Below are positions 3,817-41,512 of a stretch of 44,276 nucleotides of DNA, one piece after another. Numbering within the stretch: position 1 is the stretch's first letter; the number at the start of each line of letters is the position of its first letter. The translations under genes were made by a program, and so were the position numbers. This DNA comes from a virus. A model generated the notes under the pieces. The model did no database searches. It worked only from the letters and a program-made list of their open reading frames with translations, and had not been told where the DNA came from. The DNA lies in IMG/VR virus record IMGVR_UViG_3300023251_000005, positions 1 to 44,276 of that record. One strand, given 5' to 3'.

Positions 3817-4647
3817 CTACGTCTTCGCCTCTTTAAAAAGTTCCTGATATGACGTTTTAGTATCGACAGGTTTGTCTGGATCGTTCCCACCACCGGGTCC
3901 CCCGGCACCGAGACTCTCCTCTCCAATTAAGGTGCTGACTAAATGCAGTACCTCTACTACAACGGGATCATTAACCTTCCCACTGTTTGAAAGCGCAGGT
4001 GCGAGTCTACCTTCCATCCTGCGGTCGAGCAGAGCTAAGGTTACCAACGCTTTTGCTCTGTTGGCATCGTACGTGGTTCCCACCCACTTCGTCTTCAAGA
4101 AGGATTCACCGGCTGCGATCAGATCTGCCTGACCGGCAGCAAGCTCTCCTGCCTGCCACACAGCAAGTGCTTGCGCGGCTTCAGGATCTACCCGGTTCTC
4201 CAAACAAAACTGTCTGAAACGATCAATCGAGCCTGTTTGATCGTTGGCTGCGATGTCATTACCCTCTGCATCCTTACCAAAATCAAACACATAGTCCTCA
4301 GCTTTAAGACCTGTGAGTGTATTACCTCTCTCAGCAGCACTCAGAGCAGCCTCAAGCGACTCAAAGCCTTTCAGCTTCTCGTGGGACGCTTCAGGCAAGT
4401 CCTTGTACCACACCTCAGCCGGGGGCTGTTTGAGAGCTTCTTCTGCTGCTAACCTCGCAGCATCCGACAAATTAGCTGCCGGTGGATCTGCTGCAGGTGG
4501 ATCTGCTGCAGGTGGATCTGCTGCAGGTGGATCTGCTGCAGGTGGATCTGCTGCCGGTGGTGTTGCTGCCGGTGGTGTTGCTGCCGGTGGTGCCGCTGTT
4601 CCTGCCGCATCGTTTGCTGCGCCCGTAGGCTTTGCAAAGTCAGTCAT
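3817..4647 (-). CDS. Capsid scaffolding protein-like, with proline-rich repeat
   Basis: This is a 276-residue acidic, alanine-rich protein between portal and capsid, the normal place of a scaffold. Residues about 18-58 are a PPAAD/PPAAT repeat encoded by eight 15-bp units. After it comes a charged helical region (LSDAARLAAEEALKQPP, then VWYKDLPEASHEKLKGFESL). In this protein class a peptide near the N-terminus typically binds other head proteins and a long disordered linker is tolerated. The C-terminus is short and basic-acidic (YQELFKEAKT). It is expected inside the procapsid and released or degraded on maturation. An identity as scaffold is inferred from composition and position. Confidence 0.75.
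   Translation of the reverse strand: MTDFAKPTGAANDAAGTAAPPAATPPAATPPAADPPAADPPAADPPAADPPAADPPAANLSDAARLAAEEALKQPPAEVWYKDLPEASHEKLKGFESLEAALSAAERGNTLTGLKAEDYVFDFGKDAEGNDIAANDQTGSIDRFRQFCLENRVDPEAAQALAVWQAGELAAGQADLIAAGESFLKTKWVGTTYDANRAKALVTLALLDRRMEGRLAPALSNSGKVNDPVVVEVLHLVSTLIGEESLGAGGPGGGNDPDKPVDTKTSYQELFKEAKT
4475..4594 (-). repeat. Eight tandem 15-bp units encoding a PPAA(D/T) repeat
   Basis: The plus-strand unit is GCTGCAGGTGGATCT with small variants (GCTGCC, GGTGTT). Units run 4475-4594 in frame in the scaffold gene. Four central units are identical, indicating recent expansion. Copy number is likely to vary between isolates. Confidence 0.9.
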
Positions 4648-7399: not shown

Positions 7400-7911
7400 C
7401 AAACACCCTCCCCATAGTGCCGGAGATCCAACACGGAGATAACTCCATCAACAAACCTGTCATGCTTCACCAGATGACACGCACCCGGTAATATCGCACC
7501 TCTATCAAAACCAACTGCATCCATCAGAGGAAACACATTCCTGTACACAACAGGAGTCACCCCGTAGATACTATCGAGGTGCCCAAGACCTGCTAACCAC
7601 TGCGCGGACTGTTTCATCATTTCAATACTCTCTTCAAGATCCAGAGGCGCGAACGTGCAGAAGTGTATCATCGCAGTGCGACCGTGAAACCCATTAAGCC
7701 ACCAACACCCGGTGGTGCCATGCTCAGGATGATCGCAGCGGACCAACCAACACTGCACGTCTATGACGTATGACACCCAAGTCTGCCAAGAGGTGACCTG
7801 CCCATCGTAGAACACGAAGTCTGCTGAACCATCACGCCTCATCAACCCGTACAATGCTGCGATGTCTGCAGGCTTTAAAAACCTCTTATGTGTAAAACCA
7901 TACTTAGTCAT
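7399..7911 (-). CDS. GNAT-fold-like protein (phage acetyltransferase-like)
   Basis: This 170-residue protein has a C-terminal half that follows the GNAT acetyltransferase pattern: AQWLAGLGHLDSIYGVTPVV, then NVFPLMDAVGFDRGAILPGA, a helix plus 'GF' beta-bulge segment typical of acetyl-CoA-dependent transferases. Proteins of this appearance are frequent between terminase and portal genes of T7-type phages, where some are internal virion proteins rather than enzymes. The substrate is unknown. The start overlaps the end of the large terminase gene by four bases (ATGA), so translation is probably coupled. Confidence 0.55.
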   Translation of the reverse strand: MTKYGFTHKRFLKPADIAALYGLMRRDGSADFVFYDGQVTSWQTWVSYVIDVQCWLVRCDHPEHGTTGCWWLNGFHGRTAMIHFCTFAPLDLEESIEMMKQSAQWLAGLGHLDSIYGVTPVVYRNVFPLMDAVGFDRGAILPGACHLVKHDRFVDGVISVLDLRHYGEGV

Positions 7912-9491
7912 GCGTTCTCCAGTGGATCAATGTCAACACCATTACTCATATTCGCACCCGCACCCGTGTTGGGGTAGCCACCGCGTGTGTGGATATACTC
8001 ATCAGGATCTGGAAAGGTTATACCAAGTGCCGGGTCCAGCACGCGTGCCAAGCAGTCCAACATATCATCATGTGAGGACACCGGGAACGCGAGGAACTCT
8101 TCATCCACGAACTCTTGTATGATGTCCCTGTAGGCACCTTCCCGGTCGCGTATGGTCAACACTCCGGGGGTGAAGATCTCGTGACTCTCAAAGTACGGGA
8201 TGAGCTTTCTTATTCTGTCGTTCTTCGGCATCGCACCACCAAGCTCGACAATCTCAAAGTGGAAGTTCAGCCGGTCCTGTTCCAGTTTTATGTGAGCGAT
8301 GTCAGCCTGCATGCCATACTGCTCGTACCCGACTGCATCTGGTTTATACTTGCGTACAAACTCGAACAGCTTCTTGGTGCGCTCTGCAAGATTCAGCCGG
8401 TCGCGTGTTCCATCAATGAGGTAGTATCGTCCATCCTCACCCAAGCCTATAACCCAAAACACCGTGTAGTCGCTACCAGTTGCTTTGATCTTTTTCTCAC
8501 CTGCAGGATCGCAGATAATACATATGTTCATGTGATCCCAAAACTCAGACTTCGGGGTCCATGCGCGGATGTCCTTGCTTTGGAAGCCCTGAGCCTGATC
8601 CGCTTTGGGGTCTAACAGCATCTGACATGCAAAGATGTACGAACCCATGTCTTTGCGTTTCTGTGCTAGTGCCTCTTCCGTCAGGAACACCGACTTACCG
8701 GTAACCGTACCGTCATCGGTTGCTGGGTACATGCGCTCTTTCGCAATACCTGCCTTAACAACAGACCGCCACGCATCGTTGAAGTGGTAGTAGGTGCCAA
8801 TCATGCGTCTGGTACCACCATGTGATCCTAGAGCAAAGGAGAGCCGCAGAGCAGCGAATGTTTTAGTGAGCTGCTCATGGTTGGTTACAGACTTCTCAGT
8901 AACAACATCATCGTACACAAGTTTCTTGTAGTGCTTGCCAGTGGGCATACCATTGATAAGCCCCCAAGCCTCAACTGTCTCTTCCCGGCTGTTGGCTTTG
9001 CGCTTGACTCTGATGCCTTTGTCAATACCCCAACACCCGGACTCCCGTTCAGGATCTTGGTACAGTATGTCAGGGAACAGTCGCTTCAGTGTCGCATTGT
9101 TCTCAAGTTCCTGTTTGATCTGCTTTAGAAAGTCCTGTGCAAGCTCGCGCTTAACAGAGAAGATTCCAAAAGTGACCTCCGGGTCATTGAGTATATCTTG
9201 GGTTGTTAGTGCGAAGGTAATGATCGTGCTTTTATAACCTTCACGCATCCAAAGGTCCAAGAAGCCATCAGGGTCTGCCTCAACTTCTCTGGTGCGCTCG
9301 TACAACCACTCCGGGTTGATCTCCGGTCTGGTGTTCATCTCATCACGCCTCATCACAACAGTGAGCAGGAACCAGAGATCCTCTTTGCATAACTTACGCA
9401 TCGTAAGGTCCAGTACTCCCTGACCCTTACTACGTGCGAGGTTCATCACCTCTATGTAAAATGCGTTAGTTTTTTCTCTTGCTGTTAACAC
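7908..9491 (-). CDS. Terminase large subunit (packaging ATPase-nuclease)
   Basis: This is a 527-residue packaging motor protein. The N-terminal ATPase region has a degenerate Walker A of the podovirus kind (REGYKSTIITFA, about residues 82-93) and Walker B KLVYDDVVTE. The C-terminal RNase H-like nuclease shows ICDPAGEKK with SDYTVFWVIG, the acidic VGYEQYGMQADI, and the final SSHDDMLDCLARVLDPALG. It cuts concatemeric DNA and pumps it through the portal. The start is GTG at 9491, inside the end of the small-subunit gene (26-base overlap), with GAGGAA about 10 bases upstream. The length fits the family. Confidence 0.92.
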   Translation of the reverse strand: MLTAREKTNAFYIEVMNLARSKGQGVLDLTMRKLCKEDLWFLLTVVMRRDEMNTRPEINPEWLYERTREVEADPDGFLDLWMREGYKSTIITFALTTQDILNDPEVTFGIFSVKRELAQDFLKQIKQELENNATLKRLFPDILYQDPERESGCWGIDKGIRVKRKANSREETVEAWGLINGMPTGKHYKKLVYDDVVTEKSVTNHEQLTKTFAALRLSFALGSHGGTRRMIGTYYHFNDAWRSVVKAGIAKERMYPATDDGTVTGKSVFLTEEALAQKRKDMGSYIFACQMLLDPKADQAQGFQSKDIRAWTPKSEFWDHMNICIICDPAGEKKIKATGSDYTVFWVIGLGEDGRYYLIDGTRDRLNLAERTKKLFEFVRKYKPDAVGYEQYGMQADIAHIKLEQDRLNFHFEIVELGGAMPKNDRIRKLIPYFESHEIFTPGVLTIRDREGAYRDIIQEFVDEEFLAFPVSSHDDMLDCLARVLDPALGITFPDPDEYIHTRGGYPNTGAGANMSNGVDIDPLENA

Positions 9492-11593: not shown

Positions 11594-12068
11594 CGAGTGC
11601 TCCTTTCTGAAACTGTTCACGTGCGTATTCAGCCATGCACAACGCATCGGCTCTTCCATCCTTAGCACCACCCTTCGGACCACGCACATTAAATCCGGGA
11701 TAGCGTGCCTCGACATAAGGCACGGATGGTTTGTCTGCTCTGTTCTTCTTTGCAACCACACGCCTGTGCATCCACTGCTGCGGTGTTGCCTCAATGAGTG
11801 GCAGCCCTGTCAACTTGATGACAGCACGCAGTGCACCAACATGCTGTTGGAATGTTGTGCTGCTCTTCGATGCGTTACCTTTGCGTGCCCACAACTTCTC
11901 AAGCACAACCATCTTGATGTCGTAGCAGTCCTGGTAGAAGAGCAGCATCTTGTACATCAGGATCTCATCAACCCAATCAAGGTACACTGGGTGCCCGAAG
12001 TCATCGAGCAGCACCATCGCTCCGGTCGCTCCGGGGTCCACACCTACCCACGCTTTAATATTGATCAT
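11574..12068 (-). CDS. RuvC-like Holliday junction resolvase
   Basis: This 164-residue RNase H-fold nuclease carries the RuvC-type acidic residues: GVDPGATGAM near residues 9-18, VVLEKL near 54-59 and the C-terminal KDGRADALCMAEYA near 140-153. The catalytic site would bind two metal ions and resolve four-way junctions or branched concatemers before packaging. A basic loop (HRRVVAKKNRADKP) precedes the last motif. The length is normal for phage RuvC-like proteins. It lies downstream of the repeat region with a zinc-binding protein overlapping its start. Confidence 0.85.
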   Translation of the reverse strand: MINIKAWVGVDPGATGAMVLLDDFGHPVYLDWVDEILMYKMLLFYQDCYDIKMVVLEKLWARKGNASKSSTTFQQHVGALRAVIKLTGLPLIEATPQQWMHRRVVAKKNRADKPSVPYVEARYPGFNVRGPKGGAKDGRADALCMAEYAREQFQKGALDGRGVQ

Positions 12069-12309
12069 GGTACAAGCCCCCCTTCACATCAAGCACCTGC
12101 TCGCGCTGGCACACGCACAGGATCGTCACCTCAGCACCCAACACAGAACTCTCCATGTGATACTCAGATCCGCAGTCAGGGCACACAGCTCCAAAGCGAT
12201 AAAACCGCTGTGTCCCTCGGTCGCACTTGATCGTGAGCCTCAAAGGTTTCTTACCTGTACACCCCTGTAAGGGGGGTGCTTTATCATCCAACACCTCTTT
12301 AATGCTCAT
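12055..12309 (-). CDS. Small cysteine-rich (zinc-binding) protein
   Basis: This is an 84-residue protein. The ATG at 12309 (MSIKEVLDDKAPPLQGCTGK) has AAGGAGG 5 bases upstream. Cysteines are arranged as C (GCTG), C (IKCDRG), CPDC and CVC, suggesting a zinc ribbon (VCPDCGSEYHME paired with ILCVCQRE). No family is recognised. Its end overlaps the resolvase start by 14 bases. It is the first gene downstream of the large repeat region and may bind nucleic acid. Confidence 0.7.
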   Translation of the reverse strand: MSIKEVLDDKAPPLQGCTGKKPLRLTIKCDRGTQRFYRFGAVCPDCGSEYHMESSVLGAEVTILCVCQREQVLDVKGGLYHDQY

Positions 12310-12334: not shown

Positions 12335-12574
12335 TGTTACACCTGTTACACCTGTTACACCTACTTTCTATTACCCCCAAAACAAGGCATTCTGCGTATA
12401 GCTATAACCCTCTGAAGCTGCGTATAGTACATTTCCTTACAAACAATATATTAGTCTCATTAATAGATAAAAGGTGTAACAGGTGTAACAGAGTAGTATA
12501 TACCCCCGTCTTTATTGCCTCTCCGCTGTTACACCTGCTGCGTTGAGGTGTAACCACAGGTGTAACGTGTAACA
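12335..12574. repeat. Iteron array A: TGTTACACC / GGTGTAACA
   Basis: Three head-to-tail 9-bp copies of TGTTACACC fill 12335-12361. Two tandem copies in the opposite orientation are at 12473-12490, one more TGTTACACC at 12527-12535, GGTGTAAC at 12547-12554 and 12559-12566, and a degenerate copy at 12566-12574. The copies are in both orientations in a non-coding, AT-rich stretch. Multiple short binding sites of this sort are typical of initiator- or repressor-binding regions. The lower-case open frames across it are produced by the repeats. Confidence 0.9.
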
Positions 12575-12657
12575 TGCGTATAGCTATACGCAGATTCCGC
12601 GTATCTATACGCAGATTCCGCGTATCTATACGCAGACTAGTTCCTATACGCAGATTG
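12392..12657. repeat. Repeat family C: CTGCGTATAG / TATACGCAGATT, with an 18-bp palindrome
   Basis: CTGCGTATAG occurs at 12392-12401 and 12418-12427. A perfect 18-bp palindrome TGCGTATAGCTATACGCA lies at 12575-12592. It runs into two exact 21-bp tandem units (12591-12611 and 12612-12632) and two partial ones (to about 12657) that carry CAGATT plus TATACG. The block directly abuts array A. It looks like a cluster of operator or initiator sites with dyad symmetry rather than a gene. Confidence 0.85.
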
Positions 12658-12710
12658 TTATCGTGATAGCACATGTGTATAGCCTTAACGCTGATACTGG
12701 TTATAGAGTA

Positions 12711-12790
12711 GCTACTTTAAAAGCAACCCCCATCCTATACGTTGTGCGTATCCGAGCCAACCCCGGTACGCGATGAGGGTTGCTACTTTA
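12711..12790. other. Inverted repeat with flanking direct repeat at the end of the 86-residue gene
   Basis: AGCAACCCCCATC (12722-12734) and GATGAGGGTTGCT (12772-12784) pair at all but one position around a 37-base loop. GCTACTTTA also occurs directly at 12711-12719 and 12782-12790. On the minus strand the structure begins at the stop codon of the preceding gene and the 3' arm is followed by TTT. It could be a terminator with a long loop or a structured RNA. Confidence 0.45.
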
Positions 12791-13043
12791 TGTTGTGTTG
12801 AACTGCGAGCATTATTTCTGCTGCCGCTTGTTGTAAAGATGCTCTGTATCTCGCATCATTATTATTATAATCAACGCGCAGCATCTCTTCCGTTATTTCT
12901 GATGCAGGCATTGGGTACGCGCAGCTATACATGCACACGATGAGAGCGGCTATGACAGCCTCATGGATCTTTGAATAGTTAGGTGTTGCATCATCCCGCA
13001 CAACTGTGTTTGCAATAAATTTTATCTTTACAAAACCAATCAT
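12783..13043 (-). CDS. Hypothetical 86-residue protein between the iteron arrays
   Basis: The ATG at 13043 has GAGGAGG 5 bases upstream, with three GGTAACAT repeats directly before it. The protein (MIGFVKIKFIANTVVRDDAT at the start) has a central hydrophobic helix with cysteines (IVCMYSCAYPMPASEITEEM) and a helical C-terminus. No family is recognised. Its place between two sets of repeats and its short length suggest a replication accessory or copy-control protein, possibly controlled through the upstream repeats; this is inference only. Confidence 0.65.
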   Translation of the reverse strand: MIGFVKIKFIANTVVRDDATPNYSKIHEAVIAALIVCMYSCAYPMPASEITEEMLRVDYNNNDARYRASLQQAAAEIMLAVQHNIK

Positions 13044-13058
13044 GGTCTCCTCCTCAAA

Positions 13059-13297
13059 GGTAACATGGTAACATGGTAACCATCTTTTCCCTATATTAGG
13101 GCAAGTGGGTCTGGCTCCCGGTCATATGTACGTGTACGCACCGCGTTAGCTTCTATACCCCTATACTTCTTTTATACTTTATACCTATAGTAAAGATGTT
13201 ACCATGTTACCTGTATTAATATTAGCCCCATTTTTATTGGGGATTGTACTGGTAACATGTTGACGCAAACATGTTACCAGCATGTTACCTTGTTACC
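13059..13297. repeat. Iteron array B: ATGTTACC / GGTAACAT
   Basis: GGTAACAT is repeated at 13059-13066 and 13067-13074, with a third partial copy to 13080. ATGTTACC is tandem at 13196-13203 and 13204-13211. Further copies are GGTAACAT 13251-13258 and ATGTTACC 13271-13278 and 13282-13289, with TGTTACC at 13291-13297. A separate dyad GCGTTAGTAACGC lies at 13313-13325, and a short CCCCA/TGGGG hairpin near 13226-13242. The region between the groups is AT-rich (13150-13195). Together with array A it is the best candidate for a replication origin. Confidence 0.88.
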
Positions 13298-13393: not shown

Positions 13394-13564
13394 TCACACA
13401 TCCTCCTGCCCACCGAGCAGCCCGTCACGTGTGATGCTTACCATCTCGTTAGCACCAAGGCTCATCTTCAGCTCGCTGCGCCGGACGATGTCCATCACCT
13501 CAGACATAATATTCATTTCATGTTGTGATTCCAGTGTAATTGTACATGTGGTTTTAAATAACAT
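13394..13564 (-). CDS. Small protein coupled to the primase-helicase gene (56 residues)
   Basis: ATG 13564 shares one base with the TGA of the primase-helicase gene (TGATG), and AAGGAGG lies 7 bases upstream, so the start is well supported. The protein begins MLFKTTCTITLESQHEMNIM and continues with a helical, methionine-rich middle and the end LLGGQEDV. No family is recognised. Coupling to the replication gene suggests a partner or accessory role. Confidence 0.75.
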   Translation of the reverse strand: MLFKTTCTITLESQHEMNIMSEVMDIVRRSELKMSLGANEMVSITRDGLLGGQEDV

Positions 13565-16035
13565 CAGATTTCCTCCTTGTTAAAAGGTAATACGGTTGCT
13601 GCCTGTTTGTTTTCATCAACCCCATCGAACAGGTCGCGTCTATAGGGCATATCAAAGTATCGACCGAGAGCGCCTTTCACACGTTTGAGTACGCTGCGAC
13701 CGGCAAGCCGCTTGAGCACAGCCCCCGCTTTGGTCATCTGACTGCGGTTAGGTTGGCGCATGCCAATGACACCGAGGACCTCTGCTGCGGTCATGGGGTT
13801 ATTCCATGAAGCCTTGAGCGAATCAAACTTGAAGCCCTTCTGCATGCCATCCTCCAGAGGGTCACCGATCTCGTGCTGTCTGTTCAGCTCGTTGAGCACG
13901 CGCATCTCTTCTGGGTTTAAGAACCATGACTCTTTAAGATCAAACAGGATCTTAACTTCAGCCCACACCTGCTGCATGTTGATGTCGTGGTTGAAGTTGA
14001 TCTCCAGAGCATCAACAGTCCACCACCGAGAGTTGCCGGTTGGATCTACCAGGTAGTCCTGATCGTTGACAGTGCCACCGAAGATGGTCTGTCGTTTGAA
14101 CACATCAGGTGCGCGTGAGTAAGGAGTGCGAAGCTCGTCTTTCATTTGCGAGGTGAACGCTTTGAGCCGGGAGATGTCTGCCTTTTTAAATGTAGCGTCA
14201 AGCTCACCCAACTCAACGAGCCAGTGCTGTATCACGAGCATCACCGAGTCCTTGTTCGCAGGATCTAACTGCTTACCTTCACCGAACGCGCTTGGTACCT
14301 TAGAACAAAGCCGCCTGAACCATGAAGTCTTGCCCACATTCTGCTCACCAGTGAACACGAGCACACCCCGGCAGCTAAAATCCGGCTGATACAGAGCCGC
14401 TATGCCCTGCAGGAGCCACCTTTTCAAATACACACGCCATTGATCCTCATAGCCCGGTACAACCGTCACAGTCTGAGCCAGAGCTTCTAACCGGGTGACA
14501 CCATCCCACTTAGCAGACTCGATATGGTCGCGGACCGGATGGTATGCGTTCTCTTCGCTGATGAGTTGAATGAAGCTCTGCATCCGGGTGAAGGGCATGC
14601 CATGCCTCACGCACAGCTCTTCTATAAATGCGAGTGCAGTGTTAGCGATACGATCACTGTCAGCGAACCGACCGTCCGTGAGCTTGAACTCCACCTTCCG
14701 GGTCATCAGGTTGTACGCTAATCCTACGCGATAAGCCTTGAGCAGTGCCCGGAAGTTTTCAACACGACCGACCGGCTTGCCCTTCTTGTTCACGTGTGGA
14801 AACTCAACACCGAAGCTGCCACCCTCCATCCACTGACCGAGAGATGCGTCACCGGAGATGATCTCACGTGCCTGCTTCCACTTACGCTCTGGATCGTTGG
14901 TGCATGACTCGTGAAAGCACTGATAGAACAGCATGCCCTCTACACTCTGACACACTGCAGCTTCACCACCTGCATGTGTTGGATCGAACAGGCACCGCTC
15001 CAGAATGTACATGGTGCAGCCGCCTGGACCTTCCTTAACTGTATTGACTTTGATGTTGTTGTCACGCAGGTACTCATCCAACCTGAGTGAGCCGCCTTGC
15101 CTCAGAGGTTCAACGCCATCAATAGAGTTGAACATGTCAGCTTTGTCCGGTCGCGGATGGTTGCTGCCTGCCGGAGCCGGTGCGCGAGGAACGTCTTGCA
15201 CCTCTTCTTCACCGAGCGATTTACGCATGTAGTCCACAGCCTGCTGCAGCAGCTCCAGAGTGACAGGTGGTGTGTCCTCTGTCACCTCTGGTATGTAGAG
15301 AGCACAACTCCTGCGATGTGGTCTGGTTTCAGTAGCGTCACCCTTGCGGACCACAGTGCCGTATGCCTTGGTGAGTCTGCCCGGTGTGAACACTGTAGTA
15401 TCAAACTTGAGCGGTAGTTCAGGGTTGGTAGGTGCTTGCCATTTACCGAGCAACGAGAGGAACTCTTTAGCGAGGGCTGCGTTCTCTTTGGTGTTAGCAA
15501 AGTGTGCCTTATACATAAGATGAGCACCGTTGCCTGAATCGCACACCATCGGCTCCGACCAGAAGAAGGTGTTCCTGATCCGGGTGCGTGTCGTGTCAGC
15601 CATTGCGATAGCTGCATCATGCTCCGGGTCCGTTGATGAGATACCTGCAGGAAGGTCAACATCAATATCAATAAAAAGATTAGTGTACTGCTCGATGTCG
15701 ATGTCGCGTGTGCGTGCTGCCCCGGCTGTGAGTTGGTTGTTGCTGCGACCGAGCAGAGTCTCCGGGGGTTGATTGACTGTGAAGTATATAGACTCAGGAT
15801 ACTCAGGTTCGCCTGATCTACCGCGCCAACCCTTATCGAGATCCCGGATCGCACTGATGAGTTTTTTTACATCATTATACCAACCGGCTAAGATGCCCTT
15901 GTTGCCACCACAGAACCCTCTCCAGAGTCCGCGCTGCTCACCTCTGCATCCTGCCGCCATAACTTCAACCACGCCACCTAAGCTGCCAAGCTCCGGGTGC
16001 ATGAACTTCAATACATCTGCAATAGTATAACTCAT
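13564..16035 (-). CDS. Primase-helicase: PrimPol-like N-terminus plus VirE-type superfamily 3-like ATPase
   Basis: This is an 823-residue replication protein. The N-terminal AEP/PrimPol-like region shows DIDVD (residues 123-127), SGNGAH (about 167-172) and then FDTTVFTPGRLTKAYGTVVR, the motif order of archaeo-eukaryotic primases. A linker with several cysteines and histidines (about 300-400) may bind zinc. The C-terminal half is the virulence-associated E family ATPase: HPVRDHIESAKWDGVTRL, Walker A GEQNVGKTS (near 562), acidic Walker B-like HWLVELGELD (near 608), and the sensor region FGGTVNDQDYLVDPTGNSRW. It should synthesise primers and unwind DNA at the origin. GGAG precedes ATG 16035. The repeat arrays lie just downstream, as for other iteron-binding primase-helicases. 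Confidence 0.88.
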   Translation of the reverse strand: MSYTIADVLKFMHPELGSLGGVVEVMAAGCRGEQRGLWRGFCGGNKGILAGWYNDVKKLISAIRDLDKGWRGRSGEPEYPESIYFTVNQPPETLLGRSNNQLTAGAARTRDIDIEQYTNLFIDIDVDLPAGISSTDPEHDAAIAMADTTRTRIRNTFFWSEPMVCDSGNGAHLMYKAHFANTKENAALAKEFLSLLGKWQAPTNPELPLKFDTTVFTPGRLTKAYGTVVRKGDATETRPHRRSCALYIPEVTEDTPPVTLELLQQAVDYMRKSLGEEEVQDVPRAPAPAGSNHPRPDKADMFNSIDGVEPLRQGGSLRLDEYLRDNNIKVNTVKEGPGGCTMYILERCLFDPTHAGGEAAVCQSVEGMLFYQCFHESCTNDPERKWKQAREIISGDASLGQWMEGGSFGVEFPHVNKKGKPVGRVENFRALLKAYRVGLAYNLMTRKVEFKLTDGRFADSDRIANTALAFIEELCVRHGMPFTRMQSFIQLISEENAYHPVRDHIESAKWDGVTRLEALAQTVTVVPGYEDQWRVYLKRWLLQGIAALYQPDFSCRGVLVFTGEQNVGKTSWFRRLCSKVPSAFGEGKQLDPANKDSVMLVIQHWLVELGELDATFKKADISRLKAFTSQMKDELRTPYSRAPDVFKRQTIFGGTVNDQDYLVDPTGNSRWWTVDALEINFNHDINMQQVWAEVKILFDLKESWFLNPEEMRVLNELNRQHEIGDPLEDGMQKGFKFDSLKASWNNPMTAAEVLGVIGMRQPNRSQMTKAGAVLKRLAGRSVLKRVKGALGRYFDMPYRRDLFDGVDENKQAATVLPFNKEEI

Positions 16036-16086: not shown

Positions 16087-16335
16087 CTATTCCACTTTTG
16101 GTGAGAAGTATGGGTTGGCCGTCTCAGTGTTCAACATCCAATCCTTCCAAGGAATGTTGATGCCCACCTTGAGTGCTGCAGCAGCTAACCTGTCTGCCAT
16201 GTCACGCTTTGGCACACGACACCTGCGCGCGAGGATCTCGTTGAGATGCTGCCGGGAGATCCCTGCGCCATCTGCAACACGCGACTTCTGTGTGCGCTTC
16301 CATAGTGGGGTTTCCGCTTCGGCAATTTTAGGCAT
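16087..16335 (-). CDS. HTH protein, Cro/repressor-like
   Basis: This 82-residue protein has a helix-turn-helix of the XRE/YdaS type: KSRVADGAGISRQHLNEILA, then RRCRVPKRDMADRLAAAA. It ends with a short non-HTH tail (WMLNTETANPYFSPKVE). It is the first gene of the leftward unit and lies beside the divergent promoter region, the standard place for a phage transcription switch. GGAG is 7 bases upstream of ATG 16335. There is no recognisable C-terminal cleavage or dimerisation domain, so a Cro-like role is favoured over a CI-like one. No integrase was found. Confidence 0.75.
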   Translation of the reverse strand: MPKIAEAETPLWKRTQKSRVADGAGISRQHLNEILARRCRVPKRDMADRLAAAALKVGINIPWKDWMLNTETANPYFSPKVE

Positions 16336-18205: not shown

Positions 18206-18450
18206 CCGAGACAGCAAAAGCACGTAAAAAGAGAATATCCAAGCACGGAACGTACATGGGACCAGTGACGCGGCTCCTCTGCAGGGAGGCGCTCATCATG
18301 GAGCTGCTACCACCAGACCCGGAGCGAGTTGAAGCGCAGTTCGATGACATAGATCTTGACCATGACATTGAGGACCTCACAGACGGTGTGGCGCATGGTT
18401 GGAAGATTTACCTGCGTAAACACTTTGTCATGGACGAGGGAGGAGCCTGA
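18202..18450 (+). CDS. Hypothetical acidic 82-residue protein
   Basis: ATG 18202 overlaps the previous stop by four bases. The start is basic (MTETAKARKKRISKHGTYMG) and the middle is acidic (FDDIDLDHDIEDLTDG). The end is FVMDEGGA. No family is recognised. It sits between two regulators and its TGA overlaps the ATG of the next gene by one base, so it belongs to the same coupled chain. Confidence 0.65.
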   Translation: MTETAKARKKRISKHGTYMGPVTRLLCREALIMELLPPDPERVEAQFDDIDLDHDIEDLTDGVAHGWKIYLRKHFVMDEGGA

Positions 18451-19103
18451 TGCGAAGAGAATCCAAGGCGCTTGAGCGTGCGCTAGAAGGTTTTATTGTT
18501 TATGGGTGGGATAGCCCGGAGTACATGAACCCGGAGCAGGCTTTGGTAGCCAAGCAATATACGCAGTGTCTACAGGCTGCGCTGCACGCGGGTCTTATGA
18601 GTTTGTCACCGCGTGAGTTCATATATGTGTCGCTGCGGTATGGCACCCTCTCCGCAGAGGGTGAGCCTTGCACCCTCCGGGTGATAGCAGACTTAGAGGG
18701 TATCAGCCCCACGCGTGTTTCTCAAATCATAGCAAAAGCATTGCGGAAACTCAAACACCCGAAGCACAAAGCACTGCATGCGATACACCCTTACAAAAAA
18801 GCAGTGCCTGTAGAAATAAAGGAGTACGTTCCTGAAAAGAAAACACCTCAGAAGCTGCAGGAGTGCTCTGCTTGTTGGATTGGGGCCACGCACCACCTGA
18901 GTGATAGATGCGGAATAACACCGAGGCGCGGCAGTATTTATATGGTGGTCTGTGAAAAGAAGCACGTGTACAACAGCACACAGTTCATTAAGTGCCCAAT
19001 ATGCGCTGCTGCAGAAGCCACAAGGCTGAAGGTGTTGGCTTATAAAAACGCAGCACTGAAAGACAGGGCACAGCATAGATACAAACATGATTACGTCATA
19101 TAG
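18450..19103 (+). CDS. Sigma-70 region 4-like protein with cysteine-rich C-terminus
   Basis: This 217-residue protein has a segment at about 51-112 that matches sigma-70 region 4: SLSPREFIYVSLRYG, then LRVIADLEGISPTRVSQIIA and KALRKLKHP. The last part is nearly the classic region 4.2 recognition helix and KALRKLRHP tail. No region 2 is visible. The C-terminal half has cysteine pairs (ECSACWIG, DRCG, VCEKKHV, KCPICAAAEA) that could form zinc-binding knuckles. It might recruit or redirect host RNA polymerase. ATG 18450 overlaps the previous TGA by one base. A plain HTH regulator is the alternative. Confidence 0.7.
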   Translation: MRRESKALERALEGFIVYGWDSPEYMNPEQALVAKQYTQCLQAALHAGLMSLSPREFIYVSLRYGTLSAEGEPCTLRVIADLEGISPTRVSQIIAKALRKLKHPKHKALHAIHPYKKAVPVEIKEYVPEKKTPQKLQECSACWIGATHHLSDRCGITPRRGSIYMVVCEKKHVYNSTQFIKCPICAAAEATRLKVLAYKNAALKDRAQHRYKHDYVI

Positions 19104-28087: not shown

Positions 28088-29071
28088 TTAAGTATCACCA
28101 GCCGGGAATACCATAACGCTTATGTTGTCAGAATCTTTTAAATTACCAACTTCATTTACAACGTTGATTTGAAGCAATGAAGTTGTTTTCGTTCCACCTG
28201 AAGGGGAAGAAACCGTAAAAGTGCCCTTAGAAGTGTTGTCGCTTTCAGCAGAACCAGCCCAAGTATAATCAACAGCGGCACCCGTTCCATCCGAGGTTAT
28301 ATTGGACTCAAAGTTTAAATCAAAATCTCCATGACCGTTGTCCGTGATATCATCAATATTTTCCTGACTTGCAGTAGTGGGGGTCGTAGTTGTCGAGTCA
28401 AAAAGTATTCTTGAAATATCTTTCAAAGCACCAATAACTGAAGTTGAATTTATTATAGGGTTTTTTGCTGTTCCACCAAGTGTGATGTTTGTTCCTGCGG
28501 TAATCGACTCAACACCAAAGTCAATGTCACCAATGATGTCCGCTACGTCCTGTGCGTCCTGTGCCGACACTGCCGCTGCTTCTGCGGACGCAAGGGCATC
28601 ATCAGCAGATGACTCAGCAGCGCTAGCAGAAGCCACAGCCACGCCCCTCGCAACCTCGCATGATTCAAGCAGACCCTGTGGCAGCGCGTTACTGATGTCA
28701 AGCCCGGTACCGAGGTAGCCAATGTCACTCTCAATCACCTGCCGTGCGAGAGCCGCGTAGTCGAAGTCCTCTTCGAGCACTTCGAGGTCGAGCCTGCCCA
28801 TGCTCTGATAGTCAGAGAGCTGCAGGTTCGGCATGTCCATATAGATTGTGACCCGGTCACCTGCCGGGTGCTGTATGGCAGTGTGAACTGTGGTGCCAGA
28901 TACGGAGAAGTCTGCGCCCTGCGAGAGTAGCAAGTTCGCCCCGGTTGTCTGGTCCGTAATCACAACCTTGATGTGCGTTGTGTTGAGGAAATCAAAGGAG
29001 ATCGGAAAGTACCGGTTCGATCCTGATGATATGGTGTAGTGGTCCGGCATGTACTTGGTAGCGATCGTCAT
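28088..29071 (-). CDS. Short tail fibre protein (T7-type attachment domain)
   Basis: ATG 29071 (MTIATKYMPDHYTISSGSNR) gives 327 residues; GAGAGGGA lies within the end of the giant gene upstream. The N-terminal region (FPISFDFLNTTHIKVVITDQ, then MPNLQLSDYQSMGRLDLEVL and EEDFDYAALARQVIESD) is the T7 tail fibre attachment domain. A short alanine-rich coiled coil follows (VASASAAESSADDALASAEA). The C-terminal part is beta-rich and Ig-like (TWAGSAESDNTSKGTFTVSS). It is far shorter than T7 gp17, so receptor binding may be done by a separate protein. Confidence 0.8.
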   Translation of the reverse strand: MTIATKYMPDHYTISSGSNRYFPISFDFLNTTHIKVVITDQTTGANLLLSQGADFSVSGTTVHTAIQHPAGDRVTIYMDMPNLQLSDYQSMGRLDLEVLEEDFDYAALARQVIESDIGYLGTGLDISNALPQGLLESCEVARGVAVASASAAESSADDALASAEAAAVSAQDAQDVADIIGDIDFGVESITAGTNITLGGTAKNPIINSTSVIGALKDISRILFDSTTTTPTTASQENIDDITDNGHGDFDLNFESNITSDGTGAAVDYTWAGSAESDNTSKGTFTVSSPSGGTKTTSLLQINVVNEVGNLKDSDNISVMVFPAGDT

Positions 29072-41302: not shown

Positions 41303-41512
41303 CTATTGTCTGTCCAAAAGTAGCTTAGTCTGAGCAATTAACAAGATACTATTGTCGCACAGATCTTCGTCAAGAACACCAAAGTACTTGGCTACCTTTA
41401 CTGTGTTAAAACTCTTGAGGGAATTCTTATAGTCCTTCATCACCCGCTTACCAACTTTATCCTTTTTATCTTTGAGCTTTTTAGCCTTTTTATCTTTGAG
41501 CTTTTTAGCCAT
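41303..41512 (-). CDS. Lysine-rich small protein with tandem repeat
   Basis: ATG 41512 gives 69 residues: a KKLKDKKA repeat at the N-terminus, then a helical segment (YKNSLKSFNTVKVAKYFGVL) ending LLLDRQ. GGGGG lies 11 bases upstream. The lysine-rich start resembles DNA-binding or packaging peptides; no family is recognised. Confidence 0.6.
   Translation of the reverse strand: MAKKLKDKKAKKLKDKKDKVGKRVMKDYKNSLKSFNTVKVAKYFGVLDEDLCDNSILLIAQTKLLLDRQ
41461..41508 (-). repeat. Two exact 24-bp tandem units in the lysine-rich gene
   Basis: Two perfect 24-base copies (41461-41484 and 41485-41508) encode the KKLKDKKA peptide twice. Exact identity indicates a recent duplication or slippage. Confidence 0.85.

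Follow-up and report, generated by a model that had tools for sequence, protein, structure and literature searches.

Every PICI origin consists of an AT-rich region with an iteron set on each side, placed immediately 3' of rep (PMC6092414). SaPI Rep and Cch2 recognize repeats just downstream of their own genes via a C-terminal domain (PMC7581432). Here we describe two repeat arrays, A and B, in a viral genome (IMG/VR record IMGVR_UViG_3300023251_000005), of which the whole 44,276-base stretch was analyzed and is called the window below. Both arrays lie on the 3' side of a gene for a primase-helicase, whose stop codon is 266 bp from the end of array B and 989 bp from the end of array A (Table 1). 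As in PICI and SaPI origins, each array has an AT-rich region bracketed by two iteron sets, and both stand just 3' of the candidate initiator gene. The best reading of this arrangement, in our analysis, is a pair of P4/PICI-type origins that would be bound by a VapE initiator. Our material is the sequence of one genome, and what is said of replication and binding is prediction.

Table 1. Features of the candidate origin region, in window coordinates.
Feature	Coordinates	Strand	Basis or remark
Small gene, weak zinc-ribbon match	12055..12309	-	profile match
Array A outer set, three TGTTACACC, 9-bp period	12335..12361	+	
Array A AT-rich gap, candidate melting region	12362..12472	.	
Array C, seven CTATACGCA	12391..12654	.	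repeat search
Array A inner inverted set, two TGTTACACC	12473..12490	-	
Array A lone direct iteron, 54 bp from inner set	12527..12535	+	
Array A distal inverted set, three iterons, one mismatch apiece	12547..12574	-	
86-aa ORF between the arrays	12783..13043	-	without family match
Array B outer set, two GGTAACATG and one partial, 8-bp period	13059..13083	+	
Array B gap	13084..13194	.	AT content
Array B inner inverted set, two iterons	13195..13211	-	
Array B lone direct iteron, 56 bp from inner set	13251..13259	+	
Array B distal inverted set, three iterons	13270..13297	-	
56-aa ORF, ATG overlapping the helicase stop codon	13394..13564	-	sequence
Primase-helicase, 823 aa, candidate initiator	13564..16035	-	

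Array A comprises nine TGTTACACC sites between 12335 and 12574, six of them exact (12335+, 12344+, 12353+, 12473-, 12482-, 12527+); the remaining three (12547-, 12559-, 12566-) each depart from the word at one base. Array B comprises nine GGTAACATG sites between 13059 and 13297, eight reading GGTAACA and one partial (13059+, 13067+, partial 13075+, 13195-, 13203-, 13251+, 13270-, 13281-, 13289-). A preliminary description of the locus had counted at least eight and at least seven copies, respectively. Within 300 bp, GTGTAAC occurs nine times and GGTAACA eight times, against at most five occurrences of any 7-mer in 30 order-3 Markov genomes, and with the exception of a coding repeat near 4.4 kb the arrays are the densest word clusters genome-wide. 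Both arrays are real and well above chance expectation. The gap of array A has an AT content of 0.67, the 99.6th percentile of the genome, and its best 50 bp, at 12422, reach 0.78; that of array B has 0.58, with its best 50 bp, at 13144, reaching 0.70 (99th percentile). We dropped a description of array B as TGTTACC in the opposite direction because GGTAACATG is in register with A. A literature search for the literal repeat found nothing relevant among the papers listed. Tandem repeats of other kinds occur elsewhere in the window, one of 15 bp in 7.7 copies at 4475-4590, within the ORF at 3817-4647, and one of 24 bp in 2.3 copies at 41456-41510.

The two arrays follow the same order: a group of three sites, some 110 bp of gap, an inverted pair, a lone direct site and an inverted group of three. 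Counted from the first site, the offsets are 0, 9, 18, 138, 147, 192, 212, 224 and 231 in array A and 0, 8, 16, 136, 144, 192, 211, 222 and 230 in array B, so that at an offset of 724 bp all nine sites superpose to within 2 bp, a match reached by none of 8,000 random layouts. The best of 3,000 uniform random layouts superposed six of nine sites, and the best of 5,000 in which B's gaps and orientations were shuffled superposed eight of nine, both at a limit of 3 bp. Outside the repeats, 81 of 266 bases are identical at the exact offset (z ~2), and the two stretches are not clearly alike there. Since the sites superpose while the flanking DNA is unlike, the geometry has been kept and the sequence has not. 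The cores stand in register, GTTACA versus GTAACA, and the flanks differ between the A and B words. Nearly identical spacing in two different words suggests that how the sites are spaced counts for more than which word they carry.

In P4 ori, a known origin, the type 1 repeats as annotated show this same spacing, with six of six superposing on A and on B to within 3 bp, against at most five in 3,000 random six-site layouts. A word-free scan (fixed spacing, any 7-mer, one mismatch, six slots) picks out two places only in the window, A and B, with all six slots filled in each, and recovers ori in P4. Its slot ranges were drawn after viewing A, B, P4 and five relatives (L036, L066, L011, L232, L233), so the independent test lies in the other loci only, namely L075, ECO1230-10, QT1, Javan293 and several TTGTCCAC phages. 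In L036, L066, L075 and Acinetobacter phage Alexa the scan found the layout, written in other words, on the 3' side of a VapE helicase, and in later records directly 3' of the VapE gene in Staphylococcus phage QT1 and the streptococcal satellite Javan293; in E. coli phage ECO1230-10 it occurs at one slot fewer, 2.2 kb 3' of the helicase. None of 276 shuffled loci had the layout at the strict setting, and one did at a looser one. The word differs from group to group (CGACCCT, GTGGCAC, TTGCACT, TAGTCCC, AAGGGAC, TGCTACA), and the window alone has two full scaffolds among 30 scaffold-bearing loci, drawn from loci picked for array words or helicases and not from a random sample. For most of 26 non-redundant VapE relatives, the 1.3 kb on the 3' side of the gene contained no significant array, which may reflect biology or limited sensitivity. 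Phages with VapE helicases appear, in sum, also to share the PICI-type origin plan.

Two phages deserve separate mention. A large intergenic region of ECO1230-10, a Jilinvirus, contains an AT-rich stretch flanked by inverted GGGACTATC arrays (L226:9230-9560), a candidate origin that is unannotated in the record. Where the VapE gene of Paenibacillus phage Bloomfield ends on its 3' side, CTGCAAC occurs ten times, with copies in either orientation (L354:5474-5635).

The candidate initiator has three regions: an AEP-like primase (residues ~46-397), a VapE-like AAA+ helicase (505-722) and a winged helix (~726-796). A profile search places the helicase region with VapE-like proteins (PF05272, 1e-48), and its sole sequence match among solved structures (2.8e-23) is 7pds, which we take to be the SaPI protein PriRep1. 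The same entry is the best fold match, and 7ola and 7om0, which are SaPI5 primase-helicase entries, are among the fold matches, in agreement with that identity. The helicase is thus nearer to SaPI/PICI PriRep than to P4 alpha. As in PICI and SaPI initiators of the VapE/PriRep family, a C-terminal DNA-binding domain is predicted, here a winged-helix topology modelled with a pLDDT of ~80, and it sits where the iteron-reading part of Cch2 and SaPI Rep lies (PMC7581432). We read the N-terminal half as an AEP-like primase from its motifs and its homology to a DnaB-fused primase: residues 46-397 match the N-terminus of such a phage protein and hold the motifs IDID, SGNG-HL-YK and KxYGT, as expected of AEP primases. 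Modelled alone, the N-terminal 400 residues have a pLDDT of 35. Elsewhere this region is a Toprim domain (L008, Alexa) or a Prim-Pol domain (phiWae15, CKB-S1), so the primase half has been exchanged among VapE relatives.

The association between array and helicase extends to other genomes that use the word of array A. A tandem TGTTACACC pair was found in 112 viral stretches, 42 of which have arrays in both orientations; the other 70 are often coding repeats. At 22 of the 42 mixed-orientation loci versus 1 of the 70 others, a primase-helicase homologue is found no more than 1.5 kb away, most often on the 3' side (p = 8e-11). The search proteins had partly been taken from those same loci, and the test was therefore repeated on a separate set, GTDB genomes, where a helicase was nearby in 12 of 18 mixed arrays versus 1 of 42 (p = 2e-7). 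With related DNA merged, a helicase was present in 17 of 31 groups. The helicases beside TGTTACACC arrays belong to the DUF927, DUF3987, DUF5906/D5 and VapE families, and the word is therefore not bound to one helicase family. A reversed-motif control (CCACATTGT twice) gave 52 loci, none with a helicase within 1.5 kb. Many of these loci were themselves scaffolds with the TTGTCCAC word, several at 1.5-3 kb from a DUF5906-type helicase, so the control is not a clean negative; it was set aside and replaced by non-mixed-orientation loci and shuffles. Mixed TTGTCCAC arrays on the same scaffold occur in L237, L251, L262, L265, L275, L280, L286 and L287, and these phages make up a further lineage of candidate origins.

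The preliminary description had overlooked the AT-rich gaps, the layout common to A and B, and a third repeat family, array C. Its seven CTATACGCA copies, in both orientations, are interleaved with array A, two of them inside the gap of that array, and four (12584, 12605, 12626, 12644) follow one another at intervals of 21, 21 and 18 bp, close to two turns of the helix. The ATGA overlap of the 56-aa ORF with the helicase stop codon possibly allows translational coupling.

We consider it probable that A and B are both complete origins, which the adjacent VapE primase-helicase would bind, melt and prime. The protein would bind the iterons through its C-terminal winged helix and assemble as inverted complexes on both sides of the AT-rich gap. 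It would next melt the gap and load itself as helicase, and its N-terminal AEP-like primase would make the first primers for the phage PolA. This model accords with what can be read directly: the repeats and the layout that A and B share, their AT-rich gaps, the recurrence of that layout in P4 ori and next to VapE helicases of other elements, and the homology to PriRep1. Most likely both arrays serve one protein, because the layout, the direction and a GT[T/A]ACA core are common to both. A single protein would then read two different words; this, like binding, melting and priming, is inferred. It seems unlikely to us that this helicase has its origin in one array only, the other being a relic, a decoy or the target of a second initiator from a satellite, plasmid or phage resident in the same cell. 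That the words differ would fit such a division, as would the use of each word alone beside one helicase elsewhere (TGTTACACC widely, a TGTTACC-type word in L201, L206 and L209), the single VapE gene of the window, where we found no second VapE helicase, and the lack of two full scaffolds at any other locus examined. The nine sites are nevertheless alike in spacing and direction, which suggests upkeep by the same nucleoprotein complex, and their similar cores are in register.

Another role for the arrays might be read from the position of their outer sets, which lie directly upstream of ribosome-binding sites, that of array A before the gene starting at 12309 and that of array B before the 86-aa ORF starting at 13043. 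The product of 16087-16335 is a small HTH-like protein, and the arrays might be operators by which a phage regulator controls these two adjoining small genes, with replication starting elsewhere. We hold this to be very improbable: it leaves unexplained a 240-bp layout that is common to P4 ori and to arrays 3' of unrelated helicases, and promoter-like sites are no commoner here than in shuffles. Iteron-like arrays are also found at centromeres, and terminase genes are found close to some TGTTACACC arrays for which no helicase was detected, as might be expected if the repeats were a partition or packaging site and not an origin. To this we give next to no credence, since the layout equals that of P4 ori, the terminase gene (7908-9491) ends nearly 3 kb off, and no ParA or ParB was recognized among the window proteins scanned.

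Returning to two origins served by the VapE protein, one genome with two full scaffolds and two words is new here. A wider generalization, which we offer as speculation and think quite unlikely, is that P4, PICI and VapE/DUF927 origins share one fixed scaffold with a freely changing word, and that this phage doubled the scaffold with two words to serve its own and a second initiator, or two initiation modes. The doubled, two-word origin is in any case a natural test of word change under constant assembly geometry. Phage origins are hard to predict because their repeats are unlike one another; a word-free spacing rule that finds P4 ori and candidates beside VapE helicases in several phages is therefore usable for origin prediction, and it could link the words to their winged-helix domains.

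The genome itself is podophage-like and is that of a phage. The portal, terminase and tail genes present in the window set it apart from a PICI, which would have satellite content without a full structural set. The terminal 139 bases of the record agree at 138 positions between start and end, which makes the circle of 44,137 bp proposed in the preliminary description reasonable. That description also expected the GC skew to change sign at 12.3-13.3 kb, and it does not: the detrended skew has its minimum at 14,970, following a gene-strand switch near 16.3 kb, and its maximum at 29,068. As these extremes track gene direction, the skew neither supports nor refutes the origin. Nor is the combination of VapE with a PolA/SNF2/DUF28xx set unusual, as had been supposed. 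Aeromonas phage phiWae15 has VapE, DUF2800 and DNA polymerase genes near one another, Corynebacterium phage Stiles and Bloomfield have a polymerase, VapE, a nuclease and a second helicase, and VapE together with PolA and SNF2 or DUF2800 is recurrent among other phages. Searches by resolvase, PolA or DNA identity found no useful close relatives. Elsewhere in the window, a quarter of the genome (29073-39356) encodes a 3,427-aa protein whose C-terminal third matches phrog_9880, a function-unassigned family, and the product of 18450-19103 has a short sigma-factor-like match (phrog_351, 3e-8).

Among known systems, P4 was the parallel first drawn for this locus, on the grounds of two both-orientation clusters beside a fused primase-helicase. 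As regards layout the parallel holds and can be sharpened, since P4 has a fused primase-helicase, two cis regions and an ori spacing that A and B reproduce, and its crr lies 46 bp 3' of alpha, much as the arrays lie 3' of the gene here. It fails for the helicase, which is VapE-like (PF05272) with an AEP-like N-terminus and is no homologue of alpha, a protein from another helicase family. The alpha primase is Toprim-type. P4 also uses one word, TGTTCACC, in both cis regions (our literature search found no paper pairing it with 'iteron'), whereas this phage has TGTTACACC in A and GGTAACATG in B; its ori and crr lie on either side of alpha; and its crr consists of two 120-bp repeats, in contrast to A and B, each a full scaffold. 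Because each array alone amounts to a full PICI-type origin, "ori plus crr" is not an exact parallel.

The NrS-1 primase-polymerase/helicase, compared at the protein level, is the second-best fold match and likewise joins an AEP primase to a helicase (PMC7102993), but the match is weaker than that to PriRep1. SCCmec Cch2 is an initiator helicase whose C-terminal domain binds direct repeats just downstream of its gene (PMC7581432), as is proposed for the present protein, but it is a separate helicase without a fused primase and has three short iterons only. Alexa and QT1 also have a VapE helicase with this scaffold on the 3' side of its gene; they differ in having another word and one scaffold, and Alexa has a Toprim primase region. 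SaPI/PICI pri-rep-ori modules resemble this locus in having a VapE-family helicase, that of the window being homologous to SaPI PriRep1, in iterons 3' of the gene, and in two inverted sets flanking an AT-rich region, a layout also seen 3' of VapE in Javan293. Unlike them, this is a full-sized phage with structural genes, an AEP-like primase fused to its helicase, and two scaffolds that bear two words.
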